The position numbers and the translations under genes were made by a program. Positions 2,606 through 32,619 of a stretch of DNA of 41,585 nt are shown piece by piece. Numbering within the stretch: the first letter of the stretch is position 1; the number at the start of each line of letters is the position of its first letter. The DNA comes from a virus. The notes under the pieces were generated by a model. It saw only the letters and a list, made by a program, of their open reading frames with translations. It was not told where the DNA came from and searched no databases. The stretch covers positions 1-41,585 of the IMG/VR virus record IMGVR_UViG_3300022591_000023, one strand, 5' to 3'.

Positions 2606-3730
2606 TCACGCATCGTGTTTGAGTATGTACTTATTTGAGACGGCCTTGAACGAAAGACGACCGGTGATAATGTCGGGTTCCCTCTCTTCAATCAGAGAAC
2701 GAATCACAACACCTTCACGCGCAATCTGTGAATTGATTACGGACGGACCATTCGCTCGGGCGAGAATTGTATCAACCGTATCGTCTGGTTGAAGAATGAA
2801 CGTATCGAGAAAAGGAACCATCTCCAAACCCATTGTACGGACTACCAAATCCAATTCAGGATAGGATAGATACCGTGAACCATCAATGTCAAACGCATTG
2901 TAGATATACAAGTGTTGACCCTTGATTTTGTACGCACGATTGATACCCTCTCCGATTATCTCTCCTTGTACCGCAAGGTTGCGACCTTCTCGGCGAAATC
3001 TGCGTTCAATTTCGAGTGACCGCGCAATACGCCAGTACGTATCGTCGCCAGGCTCGTACTCCCAATTACGTCCAACCACGCCGAACACACCCTCATTGAA
3101 GTAGTACGTTGAACTTGTACCATCCAACTTCTCCGTTTCGTAGAACATTTTTCCGGCGTGTTTTGCAAACACCCACGGAATGTTCTGTATTCTCTCTTCG
3201 TCCGTTGTGCGGATGAATCCGGGCATTCCACCTTTCACCTTACCATTGAGACACGCAGGAATTGGTTCTTCCCATTTCTTGATATTGAACCACTCCGTCA
3301 CATCATCGCCCACTTTGAAATTGAAAGTGTAAAAATCCGCGTTCTTACTCAAATCGAGAACGTAGGGATTGACCAATACAAGTCCATCTGCCCAAACTCT
3401 CCGAAACGGTTCCTCCATTCTGAACGTAGTGAAAATGTCGAGAGGAAAACAAATTCCTTGCGACACTTGACCGCGCAACGTGGCGGTACGGATACGGAAT
3501 CCCTCTGAGTCGTCCGCCATCTTTCGTAGGCACGACTTGCGGAGAAATTCGAACTCCTTCACAACAGGAAGAAACGAATCTATCTCCATATACACGCACG
3601 TGTCACCCACCTTGAACTCACCCTTCTTGACAACCACGTGCCAACCACGGACGGTTGCGACTTCTATTGCATCTGCACCGGGAATCGGTTGTATGTCAAG
3701 AATTTTTTCGATTGTTGCTAACTTTCTCAT
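2606..3730 (-). CDS. RNA ligase, Rnl5/DRB0094 type
   Basis: A 374-aa ligase expected to join or repair RNA ends with ATP. The N-terminal ~100 residues form an OB-like domain (IPGADAIEVATVRGW, KKGEFKVGDTCVYMEIDS) typical of the Deinococcus DRB0094-type RNA ligase. The nucleotidyltransferase domain has motif I KLDGTS at 201-206 (K201 nucleophile), GEIIGEGI at 256-263, motif IV EGVVIRS and motif V SFKAVSNKYILK close to the C-terminus. The start at 3730 has GGAGAG seven bases upstream and overlaps the preceding small gene as ATGA. A polynucleotide kinase is encoded in the same operon, which fits an RNA end-healing and sealing pair. Confidence 0.9.
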   Translation of the reverse strand: MRKLATIEKILDIQPIPGADAIEVATVRGWHVVVKKGEFKVGDTCVYMEIDSFLPVVKEFEFLRKSCLRKMADDSEGFRIRTATLRGQVSQGICFPLDIFTTFRMEEPFRRVWADGLVLVNPYVLDLSKNADFYTFNFKVGDDVTEWFNIKKWEEPIPACLNGKVKGGMPGFIRTTDEERIQNIPWVFAKHAGKMFYETEKLDGTSSTYYFNEGVFGVVGRNWEYEPGDDTYWRIARSLEIERRFRREGRNLAVQGEIIGEGINRAYKIKGQHLYIYNAFDIDGSRYLSYPELDLVVRTMGLEMVPFLDTFILQPDDTVDTILARANGPSVINSQIAREGVVIRSLIEEREPDIITGRLSFKAVSNKYILKHDA

Positions 3731-3882
3731 TTTTGTTCTCTCCATCCAATTGTAATTGCACCAATATCCAATACGTGTCCTATTTCCCCATCGGTATACT
3801 CCAAAGTACGAGTCGCATACCAATCCTTCCTGAAAAACCAACTAAGTGGGCGGACACGCAGTATCAAATGTATTTTTCTCAT
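3727..3882 (-). CDS. 51-aa small protein
   Basis: A short gene read directly from the sequence: MRKIHLILRVRPLSWFFRKD, continuing to a terminal GWREQK. It is aromatic and basic in its first half, with a YTDGEIGHVLDIG segment in the second. AAAGGAA stands six bases before the ATG and its stop overlaps the RNA ligase start as ATGA. The strong ribosome site and exact overlap argue for a real gene. Its function is unknown. Confidence 0.7.
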   Translation of the reverse strand: MRKIHLILRVRPLSWFFRKDWYATRTLEYTDGEIGHVLDIGAITIGWREQK

Positions 3883-7142: not shown

Positions 7143-7643
7143 TTAATTGGAATTGTGTGATTTAGCACACCTTTTCAGTACTCGAATTATGTCCGAGTAT
7201 TCCAACTCTTCTTTCTCGGCAAGTTCAAGTGTGAGAGTACGAATTTCCAGCATATACCTTTTCAAAATATATAGTGCGTCGTCGTAAAGAAACTCTTGAA
7301 TTATTTTAATTGCAGTATCATAATCCATTTTGCCCCACTTTCTTCGAGCATCTTTCACCATATCATCCATATCATAATCTCCACCATCTCCAGGTTCTTC
7401 ATCTCCATATAACTCACACGATGCAATGCCGCTTAAACTAACAAGGATTCGTTCAATTGCGGTAGACTTATATCGTTGGTCATAAATGCACCCACCATCC
7501 GTTATACCAGATTTTCGTTTTTTGGAATGGATGTGTATTCTTGTAACTCGTTTTCCAAGATGCATCGCCATTATTGCGTGACCAACTTCGTGAACTGCGT
7601 GTCTAATCTTTTTGTTTTTCAAATCGAGAGATTTGGGTTTCAT
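7143..7643 (-). CDS. stand-alone M41-type (FtsH-like) zinc metallopeptidase domain
   Basis: A 166-aa protein with HEVGH at residues 18-22 inside AVHEVGHAIMAMHLG, the zinc site of peptidase family M41. A later SGIASCELYG and GGDYDMDDM segment sits where FtsH has its conserved GG(R)AAE and the third zinc ligand Asp. The AAA ATPase and membrane parts of FtsH are absent, so this is a proteolytic domain only. The ATG at 7643 has GAAAGG at eight bases; an ATG at 7652 overlaps the upstream stop as ATGA but its ribosome site would be too close. It could degrade or remodel host proteins early in infection; that role is inference. Confidence 0.75.
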   Translation of the reverse strand: MKPKSLDLKNKKIRHAVHEVGHAIMAMHLGKRVTRIHIHSKKRKSGITDGGCIYDQRYKSTAIERILVSLSGIASCELYGDEEPGDGGDYDMDDMVKDARRKWGKMDYDTAIKIIQEFLYDDALYILKRYMLEIRTLTLELAEKEELEYSDIIRVLKRCAKSHNSN

Positions 7644-7648
7644 TTCAT

Positions 7649-8347
7649 TCATCCTTTCAATCGGTTATTTTTCCACGGAATCATACGGAGATTTGAATAT
7701 GCACCAACTTTCTTTGGTGATATGTGATGGTCAAATCCATATCTGACACCTATAATATGGTCTATTTGATATGCACCTTTGACGCCACACTTTCCGCGTC
7801 TATGGAAATTCTTCAATGGTGGATTTCGTTTCAGTTGTTTGTAGGTTTCCGACCATACTTTTGCTTTATACTGCTTCCACTTGGGGTATTTCTTTTTGTA
7901 CTCTTCCCAAGACTTGAATCCAGCTTTTGTGGCTCGCATTTTCTTGACCTTATTAGGGTCTTTCTTCATCTGGTCCGCAAATGTATTTTCTGATAAAATT
8001 ACAGCACATTTATTACACACGGTATTGTTTTTTACTGCGTGTCTAAAATGTTCTATTGTACCATAGTACTTCATAAGTACATTACAATTCGGGCATCGTC
8101 GAGTCCATTTTGGTTTTCCTACTCTATTGACTTTCTTTCGTTTTTCATATACCTTTCCAATCAATTTTTTTGATAATAATTTCCGTTGTGCTTTAGAAAT
8201 GATTTTGCAATCGAGATTCGCCTTTCCACCACACGTACGGCCCTCTCGTTCTCGTCTATCACGGTCTTTCTTCGATTGGTGATATACTTTCCCACCACAT
8301 TTCGGACATATTCTGACCCACGGTGTAACCTTATTCAAATGATTCAT
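7649..8347 (-). CDS. HNH endonuclease with zinc ribbons
   Basis: A 232-aa basic protein. Two N-terminal cysteine ribbons (CPKCGG...C; CPNC...CNKC around residues 86-118) precede a C-terminal HNH core, QIDHIIGVRYGFDHH followed by NLRMIPWKNNRLKG. Free-standing HNH proteins of this kind are usually homing endonucleases in phages. It is the first gene after an early promoter, with GGAGG four bases before the ATG at 8347, so strong early expression is expected. A role in host DNA breakdown is also possible. Confidence 0.82.
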   Translation of the reverse strand: MNHLNKVTPWVRICPKCGGKVYHQSKKDRDRREREGRTCGGKANLDCKIISKAQRKLLSKKLIGKVYEKRKKVNRVGKPKWTRRCPNCNVLMKYYGTIEHFRHAVKNNTVCNKCAVILSENTFADQMKKDPNKVKKMRATKAGFKSWEEYKKKYPKWKQYKAKVWSETYKQLKRNPPLKNFHRRGKCGVKGAYQIDHIIGVRYGFDHHISPKKVGAYSNLRMIPWKNNRLKG

Positions 8348-8518: not shown

Positions 8519-10168
8519 TTAAATCTGGTCAACGTTTCCAACTACGACCTTGCCATAGAACTCAGGTCTGACGATTTTCTTTGCATATCTCGTCATAACT
8601 CCTTTTCGAGGCGTAAAATTTACGGGGTCGTATACGAGAGGCGTAGTGATTAGCGGCACATATGGTGCGTACACAGCACCCGTCTCAAGGAACTGCGTTC
8701 CACGGAAGCCCATCAATATGATGTTGTCCAACATATACGGATTCTTGTAGACATTGTATCTGTTGTTCACGGCACCAATCTTCTGGACACCCATTGCGAA
8801 CTTCATCTTGTCACCATCCGTATCTGCTGCATAACCCGGAATGGACTCAATGACTGTTGCGACTTCAGGAGAGCAAACGAGGAAGTTTGCACCGCCTCTC
8901 ATTGTCTTCTGGTGAATCTTGTTACTGACCTTCTGCAACTTGACACCGATTGTCTGGAACCAGGTCATTTTCGTGTATGCGTTGCTGTTACCAGCTGCAC
9001 TGTCCACAAAAAGTCCTGTATTTGGGTTGTACTCAGTTCCAACCTTGCACGACCAGTACTCAGTCGTCAAAGCGTTGACAATCAACATATCGAGAATTTC
9101 CAAGTCAATTTCCATTGAAATGTATTCCGACAACATTGAAGTCAATTCCGCCTCAGCGTCAATCGAGTGGTATGCGTTAAGGTCTTGACTGAACTCAGGA
9201 GTCCAGATTGCTTTCAACTTACGTGTCTTTGCAACGATAGGTACAGAGTTCATTGCGACGTTGATTTCTGGGATACCAATATCATCTGCGGTGGACTGTG
9301 CAGGCACTGTGAAGCTGGACTGCTCGAAGTCACCACGGTTTGATGCGTTATCCACGAAACCGGTCGTCTGAACGATGTACGAAATTGATGCAGTTGTTGC
9401 CGTTGAACCACTCTGCATTGATGCGTTTGATGCAGAAACGAACAACACTACATTTGAACTACCGTCAAAGTAGAAGTACTGCGGGAACTGCGAGTTAATC
9501 GAAGCTGCAGCAGATGCGGACGTGAATGACAACACACGGAACGCCTTCACACCCTGAATATCAGGGTTCGTAAATGACGATGATGGAGTCTGAATTGCAT
9601 AGATTGTACCTGCCGAGATTGATGCAGACAATTCCGGACGGAAGTTAACTTGTGCCCACGTTGCTGCAGTTACGGTAACTCCGTTAACCGTTACTGACTG
9701 AGTGTTGATGGAATAACCGAATCGGCCTCCACCATACAAACCACCTGATGCATCTGCTGACGTGTTTGTTACACCATAAACGCTATCACCCGACGTGAAT
9801 CCGCCCTTTGTCGTACCGTACTTGAAGTCAAGGTAGAACACGAGGCCTGACGGGAGGTTCATCGGTTGAACTGACACGAAGTCCTTTGCAGCGATTTCAC
9901 CGAAAATCTTACGAACCAACGGAAGTGCGACTCCACTCCATTGCTCCGCGTTTGCGGTGGTACCGGTGCGCGAGGCCTCGTCAATCAACTGACGTGCCTG
10001 GTTTTCGAGAAGAATAGCCATACCGTGACGGTCATATTCCCTCTCTACACCTTCCAAAAGACCACTACCTTCCCACTTTTTCACGAGGCCTTTTGTTGCG
10101 TTCAAAAGCGACACTCTTGGATTTGCACCCGAAAGTAGCTTGTTTAACGCTTCATTAAGATTACCCAT
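8519..10168 (-). CDS. major capsid protein, T4 gp23-like
   Basis: A 549-aa shell protein (T4 gp23 is 521 aa). The N-terminal ~65 residues are a helical scaffold-binding region ending LIDE at 61-64, followed by ASRTGTTANAEQWSG. This matches the place where T4 gp23 is cut by the prohead protease after Glu65, and the site fits its hydrophobic-x-Glu rule. FVSVQPMNLPSGLVFYLDF and the C-terminal YAKKIVRPEFYGKVVVG are conserved gp23 features. GGAGAAACAAA precedes the ATG. It is the last gene of the head operon, directly after the scaffold gene, and is followed by a strong terminator. Confidence 0.93.
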   Translation of the reverse strand: MGNLNEALNKLLSGANPRVSLLNATKGLVKKWEGSGLLEGVEREYDRHGMAILLENQARQLIDEASRTGTTANAEQWSGVALPLVRKIFGEIAAKDFVSVQPMNLPSGLVFYLDFKYGTTKGGFTSGDSVYGVTNTSADASGGLYGGGRFGYSINTQSVTVNGVTVTAATWAQVNFRPELSASISAGTIYAIQTPSSSFTNPDIQGVKAFRVLSFTSASAAASINSQFPQYFYFDGSSNVVLFVSASNASMQSGSTATTASISYIVQTTGFVDNASNRGDFEQSSFTVPAQSTADDIGIPEINVAMNSVPIVAKTRKLKAIWTPEFSQDLNAYHSIDAEAELTSMLSEYISMEIDLEILDMLIVNALTTEYWSCKVGTEYNPNTGLFVDSAAGNSNAYTKMTWFQTIGVKLQKVSNKIHQKTMRGGANFLVCSPEVATVIESIPGYAADTDGDKMKFAMGVQKIGAVNNRYNVYKNPYMLDNIILMGFRGTQFLETGAVYAPYVPLITTPLVYDPVNFTPRKGVMTRYAKKIVRPEFYGKVVVGNVDQI

Positions 10169-10209: not shown

Positions 10210-11688
10210 TTACAAGAATTTCTTGATGGTCTGCTTTCCACTTCCAACACCACTAAGTTGTTTGAACCTTGCTGCCAAATCCTGACCTTCGGTCAAAACT
10301 GTCGGCTTGGTTGAACCCACTGGTTTTGAAGCTGTCTGACGTGTAGGTTTCTTCGACTCATTGATTTTCGTACCCTTCAACTTGAAGGATTCTGCTAACG
10401 TTGCATAGACCAACTTGACTTCACGAATCGTATTCGCGCGGTCTATTGCCTCTATGACACGCAATTTCTGAGCTTCAGAAAGACTTGCACTTCTGAACAA
10501 CTTGTTGGAGTAGAGAAGTTTTCCGTTCAAGAGATTGATTTCATTCAACTTGTTCTTGAGATAGATAACTACCTTGCGGTGTTCCTTCAAAGACTTCATA
10601 AGGCGAGTGTTTTCGGTTTTCATCAAATCGAACTCCTTCTCCTTTTCGTCATCTTCTGGTTCACCCTCTGCACCCATCTCCCCTTCAATCTCCTTTACGA
10701 GATTTTCTAGGTCGAGTTCCTCTTCCTCTGCGCCCGGGCCTTGTCCGAAAGGTTTACCCTCTCCGCCAATTCCTACTGGGTCTGCGTCGGTTGTTGGTTG
10801 CGTTTCTGTTGCAGTTTCCGAACCACTACCAGCATCAGGAGCAATTGCACCGGCTTTTTCCTTCTCCGGGTCTGCACTCTGATCTGCGGTAATGTCTACT
10901 GCCTCTTCTGCAGGAACTCCAGTTAGCTTCTCAGCATCTTCCTCACCAGGAGTCTCTTCGCCAGCGAACGGTTCGTCATTCAACTCACCTTCCTCTGCCT
11001 CCAATTCCTTAATGATGGCTTCAAGTTCTACTGCATCTTCATCTGCCTCTGAACCTTCCTCACCAGGAACTCCTTCTGCACCTGGTTCAACGGCGATGTC
11101 TACTTTTTCACCTGGCTCTTCAGGAACTTCAATTTCTGGTGCTCCCTCTTCACCCGGCACTTCCTCACCAGGAACTTCCTCTCCAGGAACTTCTTCCTCT
11201 CCAGGAATTTCCTCTTCATATACTGCAGGAACGTACTTTGACTTTCCGGAATCGGTTGCGGTTTCGGAACCACTTTCCTCACCATCACCTAAACTACCAA
11301 CTGCACCGGCCTTTTCCGCCTCAGGATCTGCACCCTGATCATTTGTTGCGTCCTTTCCTTCTCTCTTGACTTTCATTTCGTTCTTGTGAACTATTGTCGG
11401 GTCAAGTCTCTTCTGGTCCTGATCGAATCCAGTTGCGAGCTCATCGGGTTCTTCCTTTGCGAAATCACCCTCTACGCCTTCGTCCTCATCTTTCAGCGCT
11501 TCCTTAACTTTCGTTGCGTATATCGACTGAAGTTTTCCGTTGAACGCTTCTTGAAGTGCGAATTTCGCATTTGCGAGAGATACGGCTTTCACCGACTTCG
11601 CAGTTGCGATAGCTTCCCTCAATAACGGGTCACCGCTTTGGACTTTCTTTACCGGTTTTACTGCCGGCTTAACTGCTGTTTTTGCCAT
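10210..11688 (-). CDS. acidic prohead core scaffold protein, gp22-like
   Basis: A 492-aa protein directly upstream of the capsid gene, the T4 position of gp22 (269 aa). The middle is very acidic and low in complexity, with VPGEE repeated around residues 160-195, and a segment DQGADPEAEKAGA (117-129) is nearly repeated near residue 280, each followed by GSETAT. The C-terminal ~150 residues are helical (NEINLLNGKLLYSNK, EAIDRANTIREVKLVYATL), then INE-S, a possible protease site. The start at 11688 has GGAGAAAAACAA before it. The identity rests on position, composition and the C-terminal helices. Confidence 0.78.
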   Translation of the reverse strand: MAKTAVKPAVKPVKKVQSGDPLLREAIATAKSVKAVSLANAKFALQEAFNGKLQSIYATKVKEALKDEDEGVEGDFAKEEPDELATGFDQDQKRLDPTIVHKNEMKVKREGKDATNDQGADPEAEKAGAVGSLGDGEESGSETATDSGKSKYVPAVYEEEIPGEEEVPGEEVPGEEVPGEEGAPEIEVPEEPGEKVDIAVEPGAEGVPGEEGSEADEDAVELEAIIKELEAEEGELNDEPFAGEETPGEEDAEKLTGVPAEEAVDITADQSADPEKEKAGAIAPDAGSGSETATETQPTTDADPVGIGGEGKPFGQGPGAEEEELDLENLVKEIEGEMGAEGEPEDDEKEKEFDLMKTENTRLMKSLKEHRKVVIYLKNKLNEINLLNGKLLYSNKLFRSASLSEAQKLRVIEAIDRANTIREVKLVYATLAESFKLKGTKINESKKPTRQTASKPVGSTKPTVLTEGQDLAARFKQLSGVGSGKQTIKKFL

Positions 11689-11807
11689 TTGTTTTTCTCC
11701 AAACATTACGTTTTGGAATCAACAATCATTAGATGGGATTGTTATAGGTATGATTAACGATGGTACGTAGCACCGTATGGGAATAGCAACGATGCATTTT
11801 TACATCA

Positions 11808-11859: not shown

Positions 11860-12450
11860 TTATTCTGTGGTGATAATTCTTCCGTCATACCAAACTTCTA
11901 TGAACATACAACCAAGATGATTGACTATTTCTTGTTTTCGTCGTTTATCGCGCACTTTTGTTCTTTCGTGCGCTCGTTCATAATACTCAATCACCACATT
12001 CTTTTTCTTGTCATATCCATCCACGGAGTATCCAATGATATGAACTTCTCCCCCATTTTCAGCGTGTTTGAAGTCATATCCATTTTTCTGCCCATACTCG
12101 ATTATTATTTGACACGCCGTTGGATTAAAACGAGGACATATTTTATCAAGTGCGGCTTCTCGCATCTTTCTTCGTGTTATTGAAGTATGATGTTTTCCGA
12201 ACATAGGATTATTTTCACCACTAATGTTGGCGTGATTATGACTTATTTGTTCTCTTGTTTTTTTAGAATGGTGTGTTCCAAATCGAGGATTATTCTCACC
12301 TTTTATTCCGAACATTGGGTGATTTTTACCACTCACAGCGCAACTTTTACATACACCATTTCGTTTTTCTAACTTTATCATATCATATTTTCTACGATAT
12401 GTAAGTTTTTTACCGCACTTAGGACAATTTCGAGTTTTTTCAGATAACAT
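11860..12450 (-). CDS. NUMOD3-type endonuclease A (putative homing endonuclease)
   Basis: A 196-aa protein. An N-terminal zinc ribbon (CPKCGKK...CKSC) is followed by NUMOD3-like DNA-binding repeats (GKNHPMFG, GENNPRFG, GENNPMFGKHH), and the C-terminus has VDGYDKKKNVVIEYYERAH, then D..R and GCMFIEVW. That last region resembles the Vsr/EDxHD nuclease fold and is shared with the endonucleases at 26282 and 37796. It overlaps the bS21-like gene as TAATG. It is probably a selfish element, but a regulatory nuclease cannot be excluded. Confidence 0.78.
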   Translation of the reverse strand: MLSEKTRNCPKCGKKLTYRRKYDMIKLEKRNGVCKSCAVSGKNHPMFGIKGENNPRFGTHHSKKTREQISHNHANISGENNPMFGKHHTSITRRKMREAALDKICPRFNPTACQIIIEYGQKNGYDFKHAENGGEVHIIGYSVDGYDKKKNVVIEYYERAHERTKVRDKRRKQEIVNHLGCMFIEVWYDGRIITTE

Positions 12451-12704
12451 TACAACCCCCTTAACTTTTCTTCTGTAACTGCCCGCCGATTTCGCGAAAT
12501 TGCTCTCATTCTTACTTCTCGTTTCACATCTGATGGTTTTCGGAAAAACTCGTGGCGCTGTAAATCTATTAACGTTTTTCCGTCTTTCATCATTCGTTTC
12601 AACTTCTTTAAGGCCGCGTCCAAACGGTCTTGGTCAAGAACTTCAACCATCATAGGACGCAAAATTCTATCGTGTTCTGAAAACCTTTTTCCTTGTTTCT
12701 TCAT
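12450..12704 (-). CDS. rpsU-like: ribosomal protein bS21 homologue
   Basis: An 84-aa basic protein whose residues 25-75 match small-subunit protein S21: DRLDAALKKLKRMMKDG corresponds to the first helix, then HEFFRKPSDVKRE (the conserved EFYEKPS-x-KR stretch) and an Arg-rich tail RMRAISRNRR. Bacterial S21 is usually about 60-70 aa; this one has about 20 extra N-terminal residues. S21 sits near the anti-Shine-Dalgarno end of 16S rRNA and phage copies are known in huge phages and a pelagiphage. The ATG at 12704 follows AAAGGG, a ribosome site like those of the early genes rather than the GGAGA of its late neighbours. It may alter initiation on host ribosomes (inference). Confidence 0.85.
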   Translation of the reverse strand: MKKQGKRFSEHDRILRPMMVEVLDQDRLDAALKKLKRMMKDGKTLIDLQRHEFFRKPSDVKREVRMRAISRNRRAVTEEKLRGL

Positions 12705-12720
12705 TGTACTGCCCTTTCTG

Positions 12721-13182
12721 TTATGGTGTTGCTTTTCCTGCTTCCCATTCCGTCGGTACTGAACCACTCCACGGGAACGGTTGTCCTAGTACATAATTCG
12801 GACTACCGATTACATACACTGATGCCGGAATCACTGTCCACAAGGAACTTGTACCGCCATTTAATAGAGTGCCTGTATTTACCGCGTCTACAATGATTGA
12901 CAAAATACCGGTCACGTTATCATATGTTTGTAGAACACCTTCTTGGTATTGTGTTGCAGATGCAGACAACGCGCCACTCGTAGATGAAGAAAGTGCTGTG
13001 CCCGTCATTCTAACGCGATACAGTTCTCCTTGCACCAAATTTCCCGTTACAGGGTATCTCAATCCACCAGGATTAAGAAGTGTGATACTCGTTGCACCAA
13101 GAGCAATAAGGTCTGTCGAGTTAGAATATCCGAGGAATGGAGTGAGTGTAGTCTCAAATCCACTGAATGTGTTGAATCCCAT
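12721..13182 (-). CDS. 153-aa beta-rich structural protein candidate
   Basis: MGFNTFSGFETTLTPFLGYS and onward; rich in Thr, Ser, Gly and Val with regular strands (ITLLNPGGLRYPVTGNL, YRVRMTGTAL). The composition fits a virion surface or fibre-associated protein. No family recognised. GGAGAAAACAAA precedes the ATG; it lies between the Gly-Thr-Ser repeat protein and the bS21-like gene. Confidence 0.75.
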   Translation of the reverse strand: MGFNTFSGFETTLTPFLGYSNSTDLIALGATSITLLNPGGLRYPVTGNLVQGELYRVRMTGTALSSSTSGALSASATQYQEGVLQTYDNVTGILSIIVDAVNTGTLLNGGTSSLWTVIPASVYVIGSPNYVLGQPFPWSGSVPTEWEAGKATP

Positions 13183-13195
13183 TTTGTTTTCTCCG

Positions 13196-13966
13196 TTATG
13201 CGAATGATGAACTTACGATTATACCATTTGTTACATTCAATGTTATTGTCGTTCCTGAACCATCTTGCGAACCGACGGTAATTACATACGTATGCGAAAC
13301 ACCTGCAGGTGGAGCACCACTTGTACCACTCGTCCCACTGGTTCCGGAAAATCCGCTTGTGCCTGACATTCCACTTGTACCAGAAGTTCCACTCGTACCA
13401 CTCGTACCAATTCCACTTGTACCAGAAGTTCCACTCGTACCACTTGTGCCCGAAAATCCACTGGTCCCACTCGTACCACTGGTTCCACTGGTACCTGATG
13501 TACCGGAGAATCCACTAGTTCCTGAAGTTCCACTCAATCCACCTGCCTGACCACTTGTACCACTAGTACCACTCATACCAACTCCACTCGTACCGGAAGT
13601 TCCACTGAATCCACTTGTTCCACTGATGCCGCCTGAGTTTGCAAATACACCGTTATATGCAATGACTGTACCACTTGCAAGTTGAATATCGGTAAAGACT
13701 CCTTGAATCGAAGTGTTCGATGGAAACGTAGGGCCTACAGAACCAGAATCCGATCCTGAAAATTCTGAAAATACTGAAGCGGATACGACATAGATTGTCT
13801 GCCACGTACCCGTATGTTTTGCAGTATCACTGATCGTCAATGAATTTATCGGTGAAACTAGATTGATTGGTGATGGATTGTTTATAGGGTCGTAAATCGA
13901 ACTGTAATCATACATCGCACCCGTCGCACCTAATGAACCCGTATATTGAAATTCCTTGATACTCAT
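13196..13966 (-). CDS. Gly-Thr-Ser triplet-repeat (collagen-like) virion protein
   Basis: A 256-aa protein: residues 1-110 are beta-rich, residues 112-217 are about 35 Gly-X-Ser triplets (mostly GTS with GFS, GIS or GMS interruptions), and residues 218-256 form a small C-terminal domain (HTYVITVGSQDGSGTTITLN). Glycine in every third place suggests a collagen-like or related elongated trimer, as in phage fibres, although proline is absent. The ATG overlaps the previous stop as TAATG and GGAGATG lies upstream. A second protein with the same repeat is at 40554-41585. Confidence 0.82.
   Translation of the reverse strand: MSIKEFQYTGSLGATGAMYDYSSIYDPINNPSPINLVSPINSLTISDTAKHTGTWQTIYVVSASVFSEFSGSDSGSVGPTFPSNTSIQGVFTDIQLASGTVIAYNGVFANSGGISGTSGFSGTSGTSGVGMSGTSGTSGQAGGLSGTSGTSGFSGTSGTSGTSGTSGTSGFSGTSGTSGTSGTSGIGTSGTSGTSGTSGMSGTSGFSGTSGTSGTSGAPPAGVSHTYVITVGSQDGSGTTITLNVTNGIIVSSSFA
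13316..13633 (-). repeat. imperfect 9-base coding repeats (Gly-X-Ser)
   Basis: Tandem degenerate copies of a 9-base unit encode the GTS triplets. Synonymous codons differ between copies, so the amino-acid pattern is kept while the DNA is not identical, arguing for selection on the protein. Confidence 0.85.
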
Positions 13967-15306
13967 TAGTTTTCATCTCCAGTATCGTACTGTGCGTAAT
14001 TCTTTGTCGCGTATTCATTGCACTCATTGAAATCATCCTTCTTCACGAAAAACTCGCAGAACTCTACTTGCAATCCTGTACGTTCCTTCCAATCCTTACG
14101 CAACACTTTGAATCCTTTCTTCTTCAAGTCCTTCTCAAATTCCTGACCTTGTTCATAACGCAACTTCGGCACAGGCAATTTCACCCAATCTTCTTTCGGA
14201 TAGTCGTCCGTTATGTCCTCTAACATAAGTCCCATCAACTGTTCATTGAGTTTCTTTTTCTTTGCAAGAAGATTACGATACTTGGTCGTCTCGAAGAACC
14301 TCTCCTCATTTGTAAATCGGTTCTTATTTACCTTGTAGTAGTGTTCCTTCAACGAAATTGCTTTCAATCCGGTTTGGATTTCCTTTACTTGAGCACAATT
14401 GCAGTTTTCACGACCGCAGACCGGGCACATTGCACCCAATTCTTCACCTACCTTTGTTAGTTTTGGTTTTACTTTGCCTGTTTGTGGGTCGGTGTAAGGA
14501 CGTTTTTCGATTCCTTTTACCTTCGTCGGGTCACCACTTGGCAAATTAGATTTCGGTGATGTGAATTTTGGTTTCAATACTTTTGGTAGTTTCTGTGCAA
14601 CTTCTTCAACTTCCTCTTCCTTTCCGCACGGGCATTCCGACAATGGCATACCGCAATGCTCACACTTCTGTTCTGCACCTTCACTTGTATTCCACACCGT
14701 TTCAACATATTCATTGTAATCAATGGGTTCCTTTCCATTTTTCTTACAACGCGCTACATAGTTATCATATCCTTCCTCTGCTTCTGAAAATTCATTCACT
14801 TGACCCTCACCGACACTCAACTTCTCACCGGGGATTGCGTTTGCAATCTTTCCAGGTTCATCTTGCGTACCCTGTTGCTGAGCGTAGTCGTCAATGATTT
14901 CAAAGTAACGTCCTAGAACCTTACCCGAATCTTCGTAGAGTGCGGTCATACGCTGGTTCACTGTATGCGCTTCCCTTGCGAGTTTGGTGAAGTCACCAAC
15001 ATACTTCTTCAACTCGTTCATATTCCTCTTCACGGTCACACCGTCAAACCAATTCTCACCGTCCGGTCCGCCTGTTTCTTTCATAAGGTATGCGTCTGCG
15101 TTCTCTGAAATCTGTCCAAGTTCCTCTGCAATCTTACGAATGTCACCCATCTCGTAAAGTTTCTTGCCAAGTTCATTGAACCTTTTCACCTTGTCCGCAA
15201 ACTCACCTAGTTTCATACCTAGTTGTTTCTTGAGTGTGTTTTGGTTAGTTTCGCCCATACCGTATCCGATTTCCGTGAGGACTTTCTTTAACATTCTCTT
15301 TGCCAT
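13966..15306 (-). CDS. 446-aa zinc-knuckle virion protein candidate
   Basis: MAKRMLKKVLTEIGYGMGET begins a long helical N-terminal half. A middle region (residues ~190-325) has a YDNYVARCKKNGKEP module followed by cysteine clusters CEHCGMPLSECPC and CPVCGRENCNC. The C-terminal 110 residues are basic and beta-rich. Hydrophobic-x-Glu steps (VLTE, VNE, VGE, VKE) flank the zinc parts, as in the next several genes. AAGGAGAG precedes the ATG at 15306 and a late promoter-like element lies 32 bases upstream. The YDNY module and zinc ribbon resemble those in the 938-aa protein. Function unknown; an internal head protein is my inference. Confidence 0.75.
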   Translation of the reverse strand: MAKRMLKKVLTEIGYGMGETNQNTLKKQLGMKLGEFADKVKRFNELGKKLYEMGDIRKIAEELGQISENADAYLMKETGGPDGENWFDGVTVKRNMNELKKYVGDFTKLAREAHTVNQRMTALYEDSGKVLGRYFEIIDDYAQQQGTQDEPGKIANAIPGEKLSVGEGQVNEFSEAEEGYDNYVARCKKNGKEPIDYNEYVETVWNTSEGAEQKCEHCGMPLSECPCGKEEEVEEVAQKLPKVLKPKFTSPKSNLPSGDPTKVKGIEKRPYTDPQTGKVKPKLTKVGEELGAMCPVCGRENCNCAQVKEIQTGLKAISLKEHYYKVNKNRFTNEERFFETTKYRNLLAKKKKLNEQLMGLMLEDITDDYPKEDWVKLPVPKLRYEQGQEFEKDLKKKGFKVLRKDWKERTGLQVEFCEFFVKKDDFNECNEYATKNYAQYDTGDEN

Positions 15307-15337
15307 TTTGACTCTCCTTGAATGGTCTGTTATATCA

Positions 15338-15346
15338 ATAAATATC
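15338..15346 (-). promoter_or_regulatory. putative late promoter element (GATATTTAT)
   Basis: Minus-strand GATATTTATTGATA, ending 32 bases before the ATG at 15306 and lying in the gap after the 157-aa gene. The same nine bases occur at the same distance before the genes starting at 28544 and 40463. Confidence 0.6.
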
Positions 15347-15352
15347 ATCGCT

Positions 15353-15826
15353 TTACAAAAACTTCTCAATAAACTCTTCCATCATCATATCATTGAACCA
15401 CTTGTTTTTTGAAGGAATGGACACGTCTATTTTAGAATATGGTTGTTTTGGAAGTACACTTATCATCGTTTTCTTCGCAGCTTCAGATGGCTTCTCAAAT
15501 TCGAACCACTGATTTCCCATCCCCCATTTACTCATCCCGCCTCTCACAGCACCGACTTTATACAAGGTCGAATACAAAGTGGGGTCGCCAACATCAATCA
15601 TACCTTGAATGAACTCTTTCCAATCTTCGGCAGATTGATTCGATTTCTTAGGCCATTGTCGTCTAACTGCGGAAAGAAGTGATGGAACTTTCCATACAAC
15701 TTCACCGTGTAATCCTTTGTTTAGCATATCCCCAGTTATGAGTTTTCCATTTGGTTCAATGACGAATGACCCAGCACCCATTTCCATAAGAAGTCGTTTT
15801 GGTAGCATTTCAACCAACTTGGTCAA
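15353..15826 (-). CDS. unrecognised 157-aa protein, probable TTG start
   Basis: With a TTG start at 15826 it reads MTKLVEMLPKRLLMEMGAGS; GGAGAAG stands seven bases before the TTG and the upstream stop TAA is one base away, which is better than the ATG at 15808. The N-terminus is a short amphipathic helix ending LLME-M, a possible prohead protease site. The rest is soluble, with a WKEFIQGMIDVGDPTLYST helix region and a C-terminal MMMEEFIEKFL. Function unknown. Confidence 0.68.
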   Translation of the reverse strand: MTKLVEMLPKRLLMEMGAGSFVIEPNGKLITGDMLNKGLHGEVVWKVPSLLSAVRRQWPKKSNQSAEDWKEFIQGMIDVGDPTLYSTLYKVGAVRGGMSKWGMGNQWFEFEKPSEAAKKTMISVLPKQPYSKIDVSIPSKNKWFNDMMMEEFIEKFL

Positions 15827-15827
15827 A

Positions 15828-16430
15828 TTACTTCTCCACGGTGATATAGTTCTTTTGTCCGTACACTCTTGTCTTGTATCCAAATTCCTTTTCAATTGCC
15901 GGTGCGTATTGTGCAAGGTCGTTCTTTATATCCGTTCCGATGGTCAATTTTCCATTCTTTACTGCTGACCTTGCCGGGAACGGAACATTCTTTCTCAACC
16001 ATTGATTTATACGAAGATTTGTAATCTCTGGTTGGATAAGTTCTTTCAGCCTACTCTGAAATTTCGGCTTACTTCCGGGTGTCGGTCTATTCTTCATTGT
16101 CTGTGTCTTTTCTGCGGCAGTCAATCCTAAATCTGCCTTCTTCTGTCCAATATCCGCAGATTGTTTCGTGAGATTTTTCTTAGTCACTGGGTCAGGTGCG
16201 TTCTTACGCGACTGACTAATCGACCTTTGTTGTTGCGTCATTGACGACATATCAGCACGCATCTTGTTAATTTGCGCTTTCTCTAGTTCATCACCTGAGA
16301 GTGCGCCTGTGGTGTCCGCTTCTTTTACTGATTTCGGAGAACATTTACTGCAATACAATTCTCCTTCTTTCCTAACCGTTTCCCCACAACCAAGGCATTT
16401 CGCTTCTTTCAACAAACTCATTAGTTTCAT
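15828..16430 (-). CDS. 200-aa protein with an N-terminal excisable zinc ribbon
   Basis: MKLMSLLKEAKCLGCGETVR begins it. A four-cysteine zinc ribbon (C12, C15, C27, C30) is flanked exactly by LLKE-A (residues 7-10) and SVKE-A (34-38), both matching the gp21-type cleavage rule. The middle (40-120) is Gln/Lys-rich and helical; the C-terminal 80 residues form a compact basic domain ending QKNYITVEK. The N-terminal MKLMSLLKE nearly repeats inside the 629-aa protein as MKLMSIMKE. TAATG overlap with the upstream gene and GGAGCAATGTA support the start. Probably packaged in the head (inference). Confidence 0.75.
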   Translation of the reverse strand: MKLMSLLKEAKCLGCGETVRKEGELYCSKCSPKSVKEADTTGALSGDELEKAQINKMRADMSSMTQQQRSISQSRKNAPDPVTKKNLTKQSADIGQKKADLGLTAAEKTQTMKNRPTPGSKPKFQSRLKELIQPEITNLRINQWLRKNVPFPARSAVKNGKLTIGTDIKNDLAQYAPAIEKEFGYKTRVYGQKNYITVEK

Positions 16431-24356: not shown

Positions 24357-24962
24357 TTACTTTCCGATTTCTACGAGAATGTCCGTGATGATTTCGTTTA
24401 TGCGCCCGTATTTACCTTCAATTGCTTGGCGCACTTTTGATTCGTTGACTGGACGCAAGAACGCACCGTGAGTAGATGGATTCGACACAAAGTCAAACGC
24501 AATGAGTTCAAAGTCATTCTTGACTTCAACCTTTCCACCACCTACTTCATCAACCGAACCAAGTCCACGCGAAGAAATTCCAAGCTTGATACCTGCGCGG
24601 AACAATTCTTTGAGAATATTACCAGCTGGTGTTCCCAAAACTTCAACTTTGCCCATCAAGTCGTCCCCACTCCACCACATTTGAAGTATGTTGTGAGACG
24701 TATTTTGTAGGTTGACCACGGACGAATCCGGATGGTCAAGTTCTCCTAATGCCCTATGTTCCTTAACGAGAGTCATATACTTCTCTGATTCCCTTTCAAG
24801 AATAGGGCGCGGATAACTACGTCCATTCTGATTGTACGCATTTGCACGTTGCAAAATGCCGGAGACGATAAGTCGTCCGTTATTCTGCTGGAGTGATTCT
24901 AACACCATCTGCGGTGATACCGAAAATGGTAGTACGTCTACTAATAGCATTTTGTTACTCAT
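24357..24962 (-). CDS. prohead protease, T4 gp21-like (peptidase U9/S78)
   Basis: A 201-aa serine protease, close to T4 gp21 (212 aa), which digests scaffold and trims capsid proteins after hydrophobic-x-Glu. The catalytic His is in GELDHPDS (H77) and the Ser in KLGISSRGLGS (S130 or S131); VSGILQRANAYNQNGRSYP is the conserved N-terminal signature and FVSNPSTHGAF the C-terminal one. The ATG at 24962 has GGAG at about six bases; an ATG at 24974 would overlap the upstream gene. It lies between portal and scaffold as in T4, but several large modular genes are inserted between it and the scaffold. Confidence 0.92.
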   Translation of the reverse strand: MSNKMLLVDVLPFSVSPQMVLESLQQNNGRLIVSGILQRANAYNQNGRSYPRPILERESEKYMTLVKEHRALGELDHPDSSVVNLQNTSHNILQMWWSGDDLMGKVEVLGTPAGNILKELFRAGIKLGISSRGLGSVDEVGGGKVEVKNDFELIAFDFVSNPSTHGAFLRPVNESKVRQAIEGKYGRINEIITDILVEIGK

Positions 24963-24964
24963 TT

Positions 24965-25711
24965 TTATCTCCACTTCCTTGTAATGGCATCTACAGCTTC
25001 TGCCGCAGTTTTGAAAATGATAACACCATCTTCATCGTGACATAAAACACCACCTTCGGTCTTTACTGAAAATCCACCTTTGTTTGGGACAATCGTATGT
25101 TTTAGATTGCTCCTTGTTTTGAAAACCTTTCCCTTAATATCTGGTTCTTTTCCACCACCAAGTTTTTTCTGTTGTTCCTTATAGAGATTTTCAATGTTTG
25201 CACGATACGTCGAAAGTGCCTTTGCGAATTGATTCCATTGTTTACCAATTCCTGTTGCAACGTCATTGAAATCAGCTTCTCTTGCCGCCTCAATGAATCC
25301 GTGATGGGTTTCATCGAATTTTTCTTCGACGCCATCCATTTCTTCTTCAAAGTCGTCCGCAAGAACTTGAACGTCCTCTGGTGTAGGATTTCCACCGTGG
25401 AACGCAAGTTCATTTACTCTCCCATTGTGTGTTAATGTTTTGATTTGTGCTGTCGGAAGTAGTTCAACAAGTTTCATTCCCAAATTATCGAATGACTCAT
25501 TCACCTTTCCTTCCTTGACATTCATAACGACATTGTGAAGTCGCGTGTTTCCCTCTAGTCCCGCTGCCTTTGCAAATCTCTCTGCATCGAAACGTGGATT
25601 GTCCTCTCGGAACATCTGAATGAGTTCCGTCGCGAGCATCTCTTGGTCTTTGCCGTGCATCTTTTTGAGAAGGTCGGCGAACTTCTGAAAGTGTTGTCTA
25701 CTGAATGCCAT
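24965..25711 (-). CDS. unrecognised 248-aa virion protein candidate
   Basis: MAFSRQHFQKFADLLKKMHG, then ELIQMFREDNPRFDAERFAKAAGL, a helical N-terminal domain of a type seen in large phages. NVKE-G and KVNE-S near residues 65-72 are possible protease sites, separating it from a central acidic helical region. The last 60 residues (KTRSNLKHTIVPNKGGFSV) form a small beta domain with a glycine/valine-rich VLCHDEDGVIIFKTAAEA. GGGAGATAAC precedes the ATG. Function unknown. Confidence 0.72.
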   Translation of the reverse strand: MAFSRQHFQKFADLLKKMHGKDQEMLATELIQMFREDNPRFDAERFAKAAGLEGNTRLHNVVMNVKEGKVNESFDNLGMKLVELLPTAQIKTLTHNGRVNELAFHGGNPTPEDVQVLADDFEEEMDGVEEKFDETHHGFIEAAREADFNDVATGIGKQWNQFAKALSTYRANIENLYKEQQKKLGGGKEPDIKGKVFKTRSNLKHTIVPNKGGFSVKTEGGVLCHDEDGVIIFKTAAEAVDAITRKWR

Positions 25712-28588: not shown

Positions 28589-30658
28589 TTACTCATTTAT
28601 CGCGTCTGCAGCACCGTTTGCATCGTCAATGTCCAGATTCTTTTCATCCAAGAATCCTCCATTTTCTGCACTGGTTTCAACGGGTGTTTCACCTTCAATC
28701 GCGAGACTTTCCTTTATCAACGATTTACTCTTCAACCACGTAGGCGGAATGAATCGTAGTCTTGCCTCTGCGCGTTTTGCTTTCACTTTCGGCGAGAGTT
28801 CAATACCTTCACGATGTAATGGATTGCCTCCCTTGAAATGATGCGTAAGAGACTTCTCGGTGTCCGTCAATTCTAGAGACTTTTCAATGTCCTTTTGTCC
28901 TAACGGGTCGCGTCCTCTTGGGTGAGAATCTTTACCATATTTCTGTCCCTCTGGTGGTCGTCCACCTAAGTCCTTTCCTTCCTTGTACGCTACATTATGC
29001 AAGTCTAAGTCGTGATCTTCAGGTGAACTATCACCATCAATCTTACCACCAGCCTGATTGACAGGGATATTCAAGTTAGGTTGAACGTTCATCGGATTTT
29101 TCGGGTCGAAGTTGGTTTCACCCATATCAGGTGTCTCTGTATCTATTCCACTACCCTTCGACAATACCGCCATATCGTGTGGTGTACCAAAGGATTGACC
29201 CGTCTTAACTGGGTCGTTACCTTCCGATTCAATCTGCGTATATCGGAACGCTCGTTTCTTGTCATTGATTATGTTGTCTCGTTCATCTTTAATTTGTTCG
29301 TCATTGAATCCGAATACGTTATGGTACAACCAGTCGCTTGAGAGCAATGGATTGGCTGTCAACGCTTCGTTCGCTAGTCGAACCTTTGTTTCCCACAATG
29401 CGAGTTTTTCCTGTTCCGCAATCGTGGAAGGGTTTGTCAATGAAAGTTGGAACGTACCTATACGTTCATCCGTGATGCCTTGTGAGAACAAGTGAATGAC
29501 AGCAACCTTAGTCAACTCACCAACGATGATTTGTTGGATGCGTTCGATTGTACGTGCAAATCGCACGTCCTCAGCAGCAAGAGTTGCTTTCGCACCGACT
29601 TGTTCCTCATAACCCAAGAATGCTTTCGGTATCTTTAATGCGGCCATCATCTTGTTACGTATGTATTCAATATCCTCAATTGCGTTGAACTCAAGTCCCT
29701 TGATGGTATCAATAGAAGTCGTACTCTCCCCACCACGGACAGGTAGGAAGAAGTCCTCGGTCATATTCATCATATTGAACTTCAAGTTGTAGTCACCGGT
29801 TGCAGGGTCAATGTACGGCGTTTTCTTCATCTTGTCAATGATCTTGGTCATATACTGGTCAATTTCACCAGTCGGTATATTTCCAATGTCAATCTTGAAG
29901 ATACGCTTTTCAGGAGCACGCATAATACGGTGAATCAACATAGCGTCCTCCATCAATGTCAACTGTTTCCACACCTTACGGGCGGATTCAATCATTGCCT
30001 TACCATACGGTAGGAAGTTGGAATCGGAATTGAGGCGGAAGTCTGCGACTTCGTAGTACTCAAAGGTTCCATTTCCATATGCACCTTGTACTTTGAATCG
30101 TACAGCGTGCGGGGATTTCGGATCGAAGAACTCTTCCCTTGTACATTCGTACACTGGGATTGGGACAACGTTCACCACACCGAATTTTTCTGATATGTCA
30201 AGTTTCAAGTACATATTGCCGTACTTGCACATATTACGAATCCACATCCACAAGTTGAAGTCTATGTTGATAATCTCATAGAACAAGTTGCGGAGAATTT
30301 CCACGACTTCTTCATCTTCGGAAGTGATTTTGAGTATGTCACCATACTCATTCTTGGTTGTTGACTCGTCTGCGTAAACGTCCAATGCAGACGCGATAAT
30401 CGGGTCTGCATCCATAACTTCATAGTCGTTGTACAACTGTAACCTTGAAGTCTGATACGATATTTGGGCGTTATATGAGTACGAACCTGGTTGAAAAACT
30501 CGGGCGTACCTATCTATCTGATAGTTGGTCTTTAGACCCATTGACTGAAGGCGGTCTACGTCAATGACGCGAAGTTTCTTCCCACCAAGAGAACGTACCA
30601 CAACGTCCGAACTAAATAACCTTCGTAAACGTTTGAATAAGTTTCTCTGTTCTGCCAT
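28589..30658 (-). CDS. portal vertex protein, T4 gp20-like
   Basis: A 689-aa portal subunit forming the ring through which DNA is packaged and the tail attached. Conserved gp20 features include DADPIIASALDVYADEST, MWIRNMCKYGNMYLKLD, EDFFLPVRGGESTTSID and RNKMMAALKIPKAFLGYEE. T4 gp20 is 524 aa; the extra ~160 residues are a charged C-terminal tail (PEDHDLDLHNVAYKEGKD and onward). AAAGGAG precedes the ATG, and it follows the terminase gene by 25 bases. No tail tube or sheath gene stands between terminase and portal, unlike T4. Confidence 0.93.
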   Translation of the reverse strand: MAEQRNLFKRLRRLFSSDVVVRSLGGKKLRVIDVDRLQSMGLKTNYQIDRYARVFQPGSYSYNAQISYQTSRLQLYNDYEVMDADPIIASALDVYADESTTKNEYGDILKITSEDEEVVEILRNLFYEIINIDFNLWMWIRNMCKYGNMYLKLDISEKFGVVNVVPIPVYECTREEFFDPKSPHAVRFKVQGAYGNGTFEYYEVADFRLNSDSNFLPYGKAMIESARKVWKQLTLMEDAMLIHRIMRAPEKRIFKIDIGNIPTGEIDQYMTKIIDKMKKTPYIDPATGDYNLKFNMMNMTEDFFLPVRGGESTTSIDTIKGLEFNAIEDIEYIRNKMMAALKIPKAFLGYEEQVGAKATLAAEDVRFARTIERIQQIIVGELTKVAVIHLFSQGITDERIGTFQLSLTNPSTIAEQEKLALWETKVRLANEALTANPLLSSDWLYHNVFGFNDEQIKDERDNIINDKKRAFRYTQIESEGNDPVKTGQSFGTPHDMAVLSKGSGIDTETPDMGETNFDPKNPMNVQPNLNIPVNQAGGKIDGDSSPEDHDLDLHNVAYKEGKDLGGRPPEGQKYGKDSHPRGRDPLGQKDIEKSLELTDTEKSLTHHFKGGNPLHREGIELSPKVKAKRAEARLRFIPPTWLKSKSLIKESLAIEGETPVETSAENGGFLDEKNLDIDDANGAADAINE

Positions 30659-30683: not shown

Positions 30684-32450
30684 TTATCTCCACGACGGTG
30701 GCATAACAAAAGCATTTTGTGGTGCATTTGATTGACTTACAACTGCTTCTGGTCTATTCTTGACTGGTTGTACATCAAGCAACCAACGCAAATCCATAGT
30801 TTCGCCATTTTTCAAACGCATCTCATAAGGATCATACCCTAAGACTTTGCTCGGTGTATAGATTCCTTGCGTTACGTGTATCCCTTCCAATGCTTTTCTT
30901 GACAAATCAAGTCCACGTTGTTTCAATTTCAATGCCGTGTCCCTAATCAACAATGCGTAGCCTAATGCAAATAATGTATCATCGTGATACCCCGCCATAT
31001 GGTCTGGGCGGCCATTGACCCATATGAATGTGTATAACTCTCCGATTGCTCGTTTCGAATAAATGAGCAACTGTTGTTCTCTGAAATACTCGTCCAACTT
31101 GGAAACTACCAACGGACGAATTTTCGGTCCTGCAGTTATACCCGCAACTAATTTGTGGGTACTGTCAGGTGTTCTCATATCATACTCACGTTTGATTTGC
31201 TGTTGAATATCAACAACCATCATATCCGCGCTTGAGTAGAGTAAGTTCTTGTAACCTCTTTCTATAATCTGTTGAATGACTGCCCAACCCATTGCTTGAT
31301 TTTCGACAACGAGAAGTGCATCATTATATTTCGTTGCAATCTCAACGCAGAGATTACCAAATTCCTTTGTACCTATGAATCCCTTGTATTCCGCGACTTG
31401 TTCAAGATTCTCCACGTCAAGAACTTGAAATGCAGATGAGTCTTTACCATCGCCACGTGCAGGATCTGCGGCCACTATATATGTTCCACCGATTCTCGGA
31501 TATTCCCATATCCATAGATTATGGTCTATATTCGTTTTTTCTCTCGGTGGTTTGCAACGGTTATCTTCGTACCACTTTATGATACTACCTTCAATGACCG
31601 TCTCACCTGACGTGATAAAGTCGCAATCGCACTCTTGTGCAGCCTTACGTTTTCCAAGTTTGTTGTCTTGGTTCTGTCTCCACGCCTTGTCTCTTTCAGG
31701 ATGAACTGACCAATGCAATCTGATTGGATTGAACGCAAATTGCTTCAAGTCCTCTTTCTCTTCTTCCGTCATAATCTGTTCTAGTTCACCATCTTCATTA
31801 AATCCAGCAACGAATCCAACACCCTCTTCCGCAGCTGTCCAAACTTTATGGAACAAGTTACCGACACCGTTAGGTGTGGACAACATTATGCAATCTCCAC
31901 CTGTTGCAAGAGTAAGAGACGCTGCGGCCCATATCGTATCAATGTCTTTGATAAATGCCGCTTCATCAAGAATGAGAAGCGACAATGACTCTGAACGACC
32001 GGCTTCCGGCGAACTTGCTTCTGCAAGGATACTTGAACCATTCGTGAACGCAAGTGACAACTTGTTGTCCTCTGTCACCTTTCCACGCAACCACGATGGA
32101 AGGTTGTCGTGCATAACACTTACCTTCGTGACCAGGTTCTTTGCAGTACCTTGCTTCGTTGCGATGACAAGAATCTTCTTGTCACTATGGAACAACATCA
32201 ACCAAAGTGCATACCCTGCAGTAAGTGTAGAAATGCCCAACTGGCGTGATTTCAAAATAATGGTGTACTGACTGTGCATTATTTCATTGAGAGTTTTCTC
32301 TTGGAAATCCCACAACTTGAACGGAATTTTTCCTCTCTGCGGATGCTGAATAATGCAATATTTTTTCATAAAATATGCCGAGTCTTTCGCACATCGAGAA
32401 AATTCCTCTGATATAATGTCTTTCAGAGACTTTTGATTAAGATTTACCAT
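30684..32450 (-). CDS. terminase large subunit, T4 gp17-like
   Basis: A 588-aa packaging motor (T4 gp17 is 610 aa). The ATPase domain has Walker A KSRQLGIST at 67-75 and Walker B LLILDEAAF at 158-166 (catalytic Glu163), followed by LSTPNG (coupling motif). The RNase H-like nuclease domain has VAADPARGDGKDSSAF, VVENQAMG and YHDDTLFALG. AAGGAAACCT precedes the ATG; a 60-aa frame overlaps its first 14 bases. I see no small terminase in this window with confidence. Confidence 0.95.
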   Translation of the reverse strand: MVNLNQKSLKDIISEEFSRCAKDSAYFMKKYCIIQHPQRGKIPFKLWDFQEKTLNEIMHSQYTIILKSRQLGISTLTAGYALWLMLFHSDKKILVIATKQGTAKNLVTKVSVMHDNLPSWLRGKVTEDNKLSLAFTNGSSILAEASSPEAGRSESLSLLILDEAAFIKDIDTIWAAASLTLATGGDCIMLSTPNGVGNLFHKVWTAAEEGVGFVAGFNEDGELEQIMTEEEKEDLKQFAFNPIRLHWSVHPERDKAWRQNQDNKLGKRKAAQECDCDFITSGETVIEGSIIKWYEDNRCKPPREKTNIDHNLWIWEYPRIGGTYIVAADPARGDGKDSSAFQVLDVENLEQVAEYKGFIGTKEFGNLCVEIATKYNDALLVVENQAMGWAVIQQIIERGYKNLLYSSADMMVVDIQQQIKREYDMRTPDSTHKLVAGITAGPKIRPLVVSKLDEYFREQQLLIYSKRAIGELYTFIWVNGRPDHMAGYHDDTLFALGYALLIRDTALKLKQRGLDLSRKALEGIHVTQGIYTPSKVLGYDPYEMRLKNGETMDLRWLLDVQPVKNRPEAVVSQSNAPQNAFVMPPSWR

Positions 32451-32619
32451 AGGTTTCCTTGAATCTATTTACATCGTTTACATCATTGATAATGAACCGT
32501 CTCAATTCAAACCCATTTGTCTTTGCAATTTCATTTTTCAATACATCGACTCTTTGTTGTTTTGGCGTTCTGTCCGATTCGTTTCGATGCGGCGATAGAT
32601 TGTTTTCGTTTGGTTTCAT
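32437..32619 (-). CDS. 60-aa hydrophilic protein (uncertain)
   Basis: MKPNENNLSPHRNESDRTPK and a helical second half (DVNDVNRFKETYGKS), overlapping the terminase start by 14 bases. The ribosome site is weak. In another frame a 38-residue gene starting at 32647 (MTAGLYIRTYETKRKQS) has a slightly better site (GGTGAT). Only one of the two may be real. No function recognised; it is too short to be called a small terminase. Confidence 0.45.
   Translation of the reverse strand: MKPNENNLSPHRNESDRTPKQQRVDVLKNEIAKTNGFELRRFIINDVNDVNRFKETYGKS

Follow-up and report, generated by a model that had tools for sequence, protein, structure and literature searches.

The stretch analysed here (hereafter the window) comprises the 41,585 nucleotides of the IMG/VR virus record IMGVR_UViG_3300022591_000023, and it is confirmed that a genuine ribosomal protein bS21 is encoded amid the capsid genes of the phage concerned. 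A phage bS21 at such a place is an already known habit of large phages. What is new is that a whole phage lineage has inherited the gene at this position, and that the window copy is devoid of the aromatic residue which helps to hide the anti-Shine-Dalgarno (anti-SD) sequence in Bacteroidia. The best overall explanation, which we consider rather probable, is that of a lineage-inherited phage paralogue which would replace the host bS21 on the 30S subunit and thereby sustain the Shine-Dalgarno (SD)-led translation of late phage messages.

Identity of the window bS21 and its N-terminal extension

The gene and the elements of its 5' end are as follows.

12450..12704, minus strand (12704 to 12450): bS21 gene, 84 aa, ATG start and TAA stop; the S21 domain covers residues 19-74
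12651..12704, minus strand: codons of the N-terminal extension, 18 residues MKKQGKRFSEHDRILRPM, lying before the profile match and aligned with the extension of the sister phage G001 (locus L002)
12713..12719, minus strand: SD motif AGAAAGG of the bS21 gene, from sequence reading; predicted duplex of -9.1 kcal/mol with ACCUCCUUUCU

An initial annotation, made from the letters alone, had assigned this 84-residue protein to bS21 on account of its S21 helix and the stretch HEFFRKPSDVKRE, and had advised an S21 profile search and a structure prediction. The stretch is present and the Pfam, TIGR00030, PHROG and PDB sequence matches all agree with the assignment. The protein was matched above the curated cut-offs by both PF01165 (34.1 bits against 27, residues 20-73) and the TIGR00030 equivalog (40.8 bits against 28.95, residues 19-74), and by PHROG 21469, 'ribosomal protein S21' (E=3e-6). 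A sequence search of the PDB returned 24 bS21 sequences with E values of 8e-6 to 0.01 and no match other than bS21 below E 0.4. The gene is the sole S21 match in the whole 41.6-kb record, and residues K36 and P57 of its product are invariant among the E. coli, F. johnsoniae and ten phage bS21 proteins.

The AlphaFold2 model, built from an alignment of 44 phage bS21, contains helices at residues 25-41, 44-51 and 57-83 with a mean predicted local distance difference test score (pLDDT) of 80, which rises to 97 for residues 61-70 and 95 for residues 71-80; definition is poor over the first ~20 residues. The prediction thus shows the open helical fold and the long C-terminal helix beyond the KPS turn that characterize the bS21 family. 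A Foldseek search of the PDB with this model gave nothing significant, as expected for a protein so small and open. Its three best hits (E of 2 to 5) were small chains of organellar ribosomes, which we take to be bS21 homologues.

The N-terminal extension of about 20 residues reported by the initial annotation was measured at 18-19 residues ahead of the S21 domain. It is real: the start codon is preceded by an SD motif and the extension is common to the closest relative. AGAAAGG stands 8 nt from the bS21 ATG, and the in-frame ATGATG at residues 18-19 is devoid of a comparable SD motif upstream. The extension of the sister phage can be aligned with that of the window, with F8, E10, D12, L15, R16, P17 and M19 identical. 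A different extension, such as MNKRQKQHKTIVAGNGNAVSV in L068, is found on about a dozen other bS21 of the lineage; this second kind, whose shared I/F-x-PG...G-V-x-V or similar pattern abuts the S21 domain, occurs in L057, L058, L066, L068, L070, L072, L076-L078 and L080 and is unlike that of the window. The rpS21 of huge phages described in 2020 also carry an extension before the S21 domain (PMC7162821), whereas that of the window has 18 residues of mixed charge in a sequence common to G001 only.

Inheritance of bS21 within the T4-type head operon

The window contains the head module of T4-type myophages (gp17, gp20, gp21-type protease and gp23). The following genes of the head region are used as landmarks.

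8519..10168, minus strand: major capsid protein (MCP) gp23; PF07068, E=3e-73
10210..11706, minus strand: acidic scaffold-like protein; blastp 45% identity to G001 31790-33019, with syntenic homologues in five other phages; the scaffold role is inferred from position
13966..15369, minus strand: conserved gene on the upstream side of bS21 in relatives; its homologue is just upstream in G001, L029, L006 and Mel-JY01, and LR756508 also has it on that side
24357..24974, minus strand: prohead protease (peptidase S77); PF03420, E=1e-31
28589..30658, minus strand: portal protein gp20; PF07230, E=5e-67
30684..32450, minus strand: large terminase (TerL); PF03237, E=1e-10; PHROG 2, E=8e-47

The bS21 gene is co-directional (minus) with the terminase, portal, prohead protease and gp23 genes around it, in agreement with the location among capsid genes given by the initial annotation. 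That annotation had regarded the location and the extension as notable; both are present, but both had already been described, the former in PMC9723584 and the latter in PMC7162821. The annotation had overlooked the strand, the broad conservation of the position, the missing aromatic equivalent to Tyr54, the richness of the genome in SD motifs and the homing-endonuclease gene right after bS21. More generally, published accounts of phage bS21 already include its adjacency to the MCP, protease, portal and TerL genes, its expression late in infection, its N-terminal extensions and its incorporation into ribosomes (PMC9723584, PMC7162821, PMC6375957).

The lineage set consisted of 80 loci from a capsid-protein scan together with LR756508, Mel-JY01 and immuto, that is 84 loci with the window. 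The lineage surfaced only through that scan: the 12-sequence bS21 alignment was too divergent for scanning, and viral contigs scanned with the single protein or with the sister pair revealed no bS21 relative beyond G001. In each locus bS21 was sought with a profile built from phage bS21, and its absence was judged only where at least 3.3 kb of sequence was available upstream of gp23. The gene was present in 51 of the 84 loci (window included), absent from 14, and 19 loci were too short, which gives 51 of 65 evaluable loci; an independent Pfam search detected it in 32 of 50 records. In all 51 bS21-bearing loci the gene is co-directional with gp23 and located 1.3-3.0 kb upstream of it. Most branches of the MCP tree carry it; the tree implies four gain or loss changes and has one large clade without it. 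This clade of about 20 loci (L011, L018, L021-L024, L028, L033, L036-L038, L041, L053-L055, L060-L062 and L064) has a G+C content of ~0.40, few SD-led genes and no bS21 wherever the length allows a judgement, and may mark a different host group.

The closest relative is IMGVR 3300037264_001396 (G001; loci L002/L115/L116), whose capsid protein is 78% identical. Blastp comparison of the window with G001 and five more distant phages highlighted a recurring order: protease, further upstream, then the homologue of 13966-15369, bS21, the scaffold-like protein and gp23. The homologue of the scaffold-like gene lies directly downstream of bS21 in relatives free of the endonuclease insertion described below. 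The bS21 itself was recovered by blastp in G001, LR756508, L029 and L006, and that of Mel-JY01 is annotated at the equivalent place; no bS21 was found in immuto in this gene-order comparison. In nine of ten measurable close pairs the ratio of nonsynonymous to synonymous substitution rates (dN/dS) of bS21 is 0.06-0.34, which indicates purifying selection; in the tenth pair, where synonymous changes are nearly absent, the ratio is 0.68. These results show that bS21 is a long-inherited, position-fixed member of the T4-type head operon and not a stray acquisition.

Two known phages are among the nearest counterparts of the window. The uncultured huge phage LR756508 (MCP 56% identical) carries a co-directional bS21 ~2.2 kb before gp23, but its genes are SD-poor and its bS21 lacks an extension of the window type. 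Microcystis phage Mel-JY01 (PP395634; MCP 55% identical) has its RpsU between the prohead protease and the MCP, co-directional and without an aromatic at position 54; it differs by its reported cyanobacterial host, a weaker SD use and another N-terminal extension, and its bS21 was undetected by blastp at 1e-4. The Bacteroidetes jumbo phages of clades a-e (Chen 2022, PMC9723584) are likewise myophages with bS21 near TerL, portal, prohead protease and MCP, and a late swap into host ribosomes was proposed there too. In these phages, in contrast, bS21 is encoded opposite to the structural genes, whereas it is co-directional in the window and in every one of the 51 bS21-bearing loci of the lineage.

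The window protein scores 54.7 bits with G001 and up to 40 with the remaining phage copies; scores with proteins of bacterial assemblies do not exceed about 34. A recent acquisition from the host was considered and set aside, the protein grouping with phage copies and not with cellular ones. The remoteness from cellular bS21, none of those found scoring above about 34 bits, and the extension argue against a plain replenishment, in which the phage copy would top up a labile subunit and keep 30S complete late in infection with no selectivity for messages, since a pure copy is expected to track the host. Such a role would suit the small size and loose binding of bS21, the late-operon position and the poor initiation on most messages by F. 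johnsoniae ribosomes without the bS21 C-terminus (PMC9976891); on balance, we regard it as unlikely.

The Tyr54 position, Shine-Dalgarno use and the host

In F. johnsoniae, Tyr54 of bS21 stacks on the 3' tail of 16S rRNA and helps to conceal the anti-SD, and the protein yield from a strong-SD template is tripled in Y54A ribosomes (PMC9976891). All 61 phage bS21 of Chen et al. have an aromatic at this position (PMC9723584). The lineage bS21 were aligned to the F. johnsoniae chain of PDB 7jil.

12495..12497, minus strand: Ser70 codon, at the position of F. johnsoniae bS21 Tyr54; the ungapped count from the invariant proline (P57, equivalent to F. johnsoniae P41) and the MAFFT column agree on serine

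The equivalent residue is Ile in G001. Within the lineage, Tyr or Phe occupies position 54 in 5 of 51 copies only (L058, L068, L070, L077 and L080); in 25 others the first aromatic comes two to five residues past it, and 21 have no aromatic at positions 51-60. Thirteen copies, those of the window and G001 among them, are devoid of any aromatic past the conserved KP turn, the last one of the window protein being Phe54 (window numbering). E. coli bS21 has Lys at the Tyr54 position; the missing aromatic is therefore a departure from Bacteroidia and not from bacteria generally.

The window differs from the phages of Chen 2022 in having Ser where 61 of 61 copies keep the aromatic, and its genome is rich in SD motifs. 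A 4-base SD core is present at -17..-4 in 18 of 25 window genes; in each of the four intervals that follow upstream, the number is 1-5 of 25. The median best duplex energy is -7.9 kcal/mol at starts versus -4.3 at internal control starts. SD use is at background in immuto, a Flavobacterium phage without bS21. The median fraction of SD-led genes is 0.58 in bS21-bearing loci and 0.22 in bS21-less ones, which looks like a strong association by raw counts; most of the bS21-less loci belong to one clade, so that two independent contrasts stand on supported branches and a sign test cannot reach significance. LR756508 has a bS21 without the aromatic, yet its genes are SD-poor. Because of these few contrasts and of LR756508, no causal link between bS21 and SD use is claimed.

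These observations could be read as an unmasking of a hidden anti-SD: in a Bacteroidota host whose 16S tail is sequestered by bS21, bS18 and bS6, a phage bS21 without the clamp would free the anti-SD and only the SD-led phage messages would gain. The Ser at the Tyr54 site with no aromatic past Phe54 is consistent with it, as are the gain in translation of strong-SD messages by F. johnsoniae ribosomes with Y54A or truncated bS21 (PMC9976891), the SD-rich window set against the SD-poor immuto, and the fraction of SD-led genes in lineage members with an aromatic at position 54 (0.19-0.50), below the bS21-bearing median. If true, it would explain an SD-rich phage within a lineage having SD-poor members. 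However, the aromatic is missing from the bS21 of E. coli and from that of Mel-JY01 too, LR756508 is SD-poor despite lacking it, and the bS21/SD association stands on few independent changes, two of them on well-supported branches.

This reading also depends on the host, which would have to belong to the sequestering class. Among relatives by capsid and terminase are phages of Flavobacterium, Rhodothermus and, according to its record, Microcystis. A genome scan for similar bS21 gave 12 loci, half of them in Bacteroidota assemblies, Ignavibacteria included. The C-terminal pattern of the Bacteroidota matches, FFTKPSVKKR..KMKAIRRAQR..EE, resembles FFRKPSDVKREVRMRAISRNRRAVTEE of the window, a motif that the scan patterns favour. 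In these Bacteroidota, residue 54 is Arg, rpsU is preceded by strong SDs and the other genes make modest use of SDs. The likeness, at most about 33 bits to cellular proteins, is suggestive as a lead to the host, not a proof. One scan locus, L120, is a phage contig binned into the Flavobacteriales metagenome-assembled genome (MAG) NAT55 (G049); since scaffold and capsid genes adjoin its bS21, this copy is viral and not cellular. The top match, L140, is from the same MAG and is probably a phage copy as well. A search for the capsid gene in MAGs, by which a host could be recognized from co-binning, gave one weak match among 294 genomes and none among 395. The nearest truly cellular bS21 of the scan are largely of a non-Bacteroidia type, with Arg at 54 and modest genomic SD use. 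On balance, we judge the freeing of a sequestered tail distinctly unlikely.

The best-supported reading remains the published model in which the phage protein replaces host bS21 in late infection. The initial annotation had likewise suggested an exchange for host bS21 in favour of late phage messages, which is this published working model; its interpretation is partly supported, through the identity, the position and the extension. The sequences establish the identity, the operon, the conservation, the SD use and the missing aromatic, and we infer late expression, exchange into ribosomes and a preference for phage messages. The phage bS21 would be produced from an SD-led gene of the late operon, at the same time as the scaffold and the capsid protein (late co-transcription of bS21 with the MCP is documented in other bS21 phages, PMC9723584). 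On 30S subunits it would displace the host bS21, which is only loosely bound; entry into E. coli 70S ribosomes is known for the bS21 of another phage (PMC6375957). The swapped 30S would keep initiating on the strongly SD-led late messages of the phage. The C-terminal helix of the phage protein would lie beside the 16S 3' tail, minus the aromatic that clamps this tail in Bacteroidia. The distinctive prediction is that the tail would be left free, which should suit an SD-led phage whether the host conceals its own tail or not.

Several points weigh against replacement. Fourteen relatives have no bS21 near gp23, and the gene is therefore dispensable in the lineage. Gene starts came from a simple script and the anti-SD was the generic ACCUCCUUUCU. 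The steps of the mechanism are, for the window phage, proposed at the level of sequence. Finally, E. coli 70S ribosomes that have incorporated the bS21 of Pelagibacter phage HTVC008M, like that of the window a phage bS21, are only about 5% active in vitro, with no improvement (PMC6375957). HTVC008M differs from the window phage in that its bS21 resembles that of its Pelagibacter host (54%) and that it belongs to a separate lineage. The same in-vitro fall to ~5% could suggest that phage bS21 poisons host initiation while phage messages escape by their strong SDs. As the pelagiphage test used a mismatched host and the gene lies among late structural genes, where a general shut-off would harm the phage itself, this is highly improbable. 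Since related phages offer natural bS21 variants with and without the aromatic that clamps the anti-SD, the effect of phage bS21 on message choice becomes directly testable.

Neighbouring genes of the head region

The immediate neighbours of bS21 are listed below.

11860..12450, minus strand: NUMOD3 homing-endonuclease-type gene; NUMOD3 E=5e-17, PHROG homing endonuclease E=0.0012
12721..13182, minus strand: small Gly/Ser/Thr-rich protein directly upstream of bS21; open reading frame only, no family match
13196..13966, minus strand: collagen-like (SGTSGTSG) repeat protein; Collagen repeat E=7e-10, PHROG tail-fibre families

Two structural-type genes precede bS21 in the window. The start codon of the endonuclease overlaps the bS21 stop (TAATG). 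This endonuclease is absent at the corresponding place in G001, whose related gene is located elsewhere (8938-9759). Three such NUMOD3 genes with a similar Cys-rich N-terminus are spread across the head region (11860-12450, 26282-26899 and 37796-38419, all minus). Promoter and terminator scans gave a signal no higher than in shuffled sequence.

Many head-region proteins carry a short N-terminal tag of MKLxxLLKE type. Across 14 loci it was counted in 61 of 351 genes, where shuffling predicts 21; the window by itself has 3, with 2 expected. Examples are the window genes 13966-15369, 15828-16430 and 38416-39930, and others occur in L116, L120, L006, L082 and L084. The tag ends with [LI]xE, resembling the T4 prohead-protease site, and may be a mark for packaging into the capsid; the CCA-adding enzyme and, in G001, a nucleotidase-like protein (29748-30257) would be among the proteins so marked. 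The position of bS21 between core and scaffold genes could likewise evoke a protein packaged in the head, as mooted in PMC9723584, or one binding another RNA, bS21 having reportedly been found in an OLE ribonucleoprotein (PMC12054373). The tag is present in none of the inspected bS21, for which reason packaging is ranked low; a virion or extraribosomal role is the least probable of the readings weighed here.

The CCA-adding tRNA nucleotidyltransferase-like gene (38416-39930, minus) combines a polyA_pol head with an HD domain and is 73% identical in the sister phage; the window has no tRNA gene. A small M41/M50B-like metallopeptidase (AVHEVGHAI; 7143-7652, minus) lies just downstream of the capsid gene and of an unassigned Cys/HNH-like gene. 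Further downstream of the head genes are an RNA ligase with the PHA02142 OB fold (2606-3841, minus) and an ATP-dependent DNA-ligase-like protein with sub-cut-off Pfam matches (41-1366, minus). A second gene with long collagen-like repeats, at the window edge (40554-41540, minus), may be part of a tail fibre.
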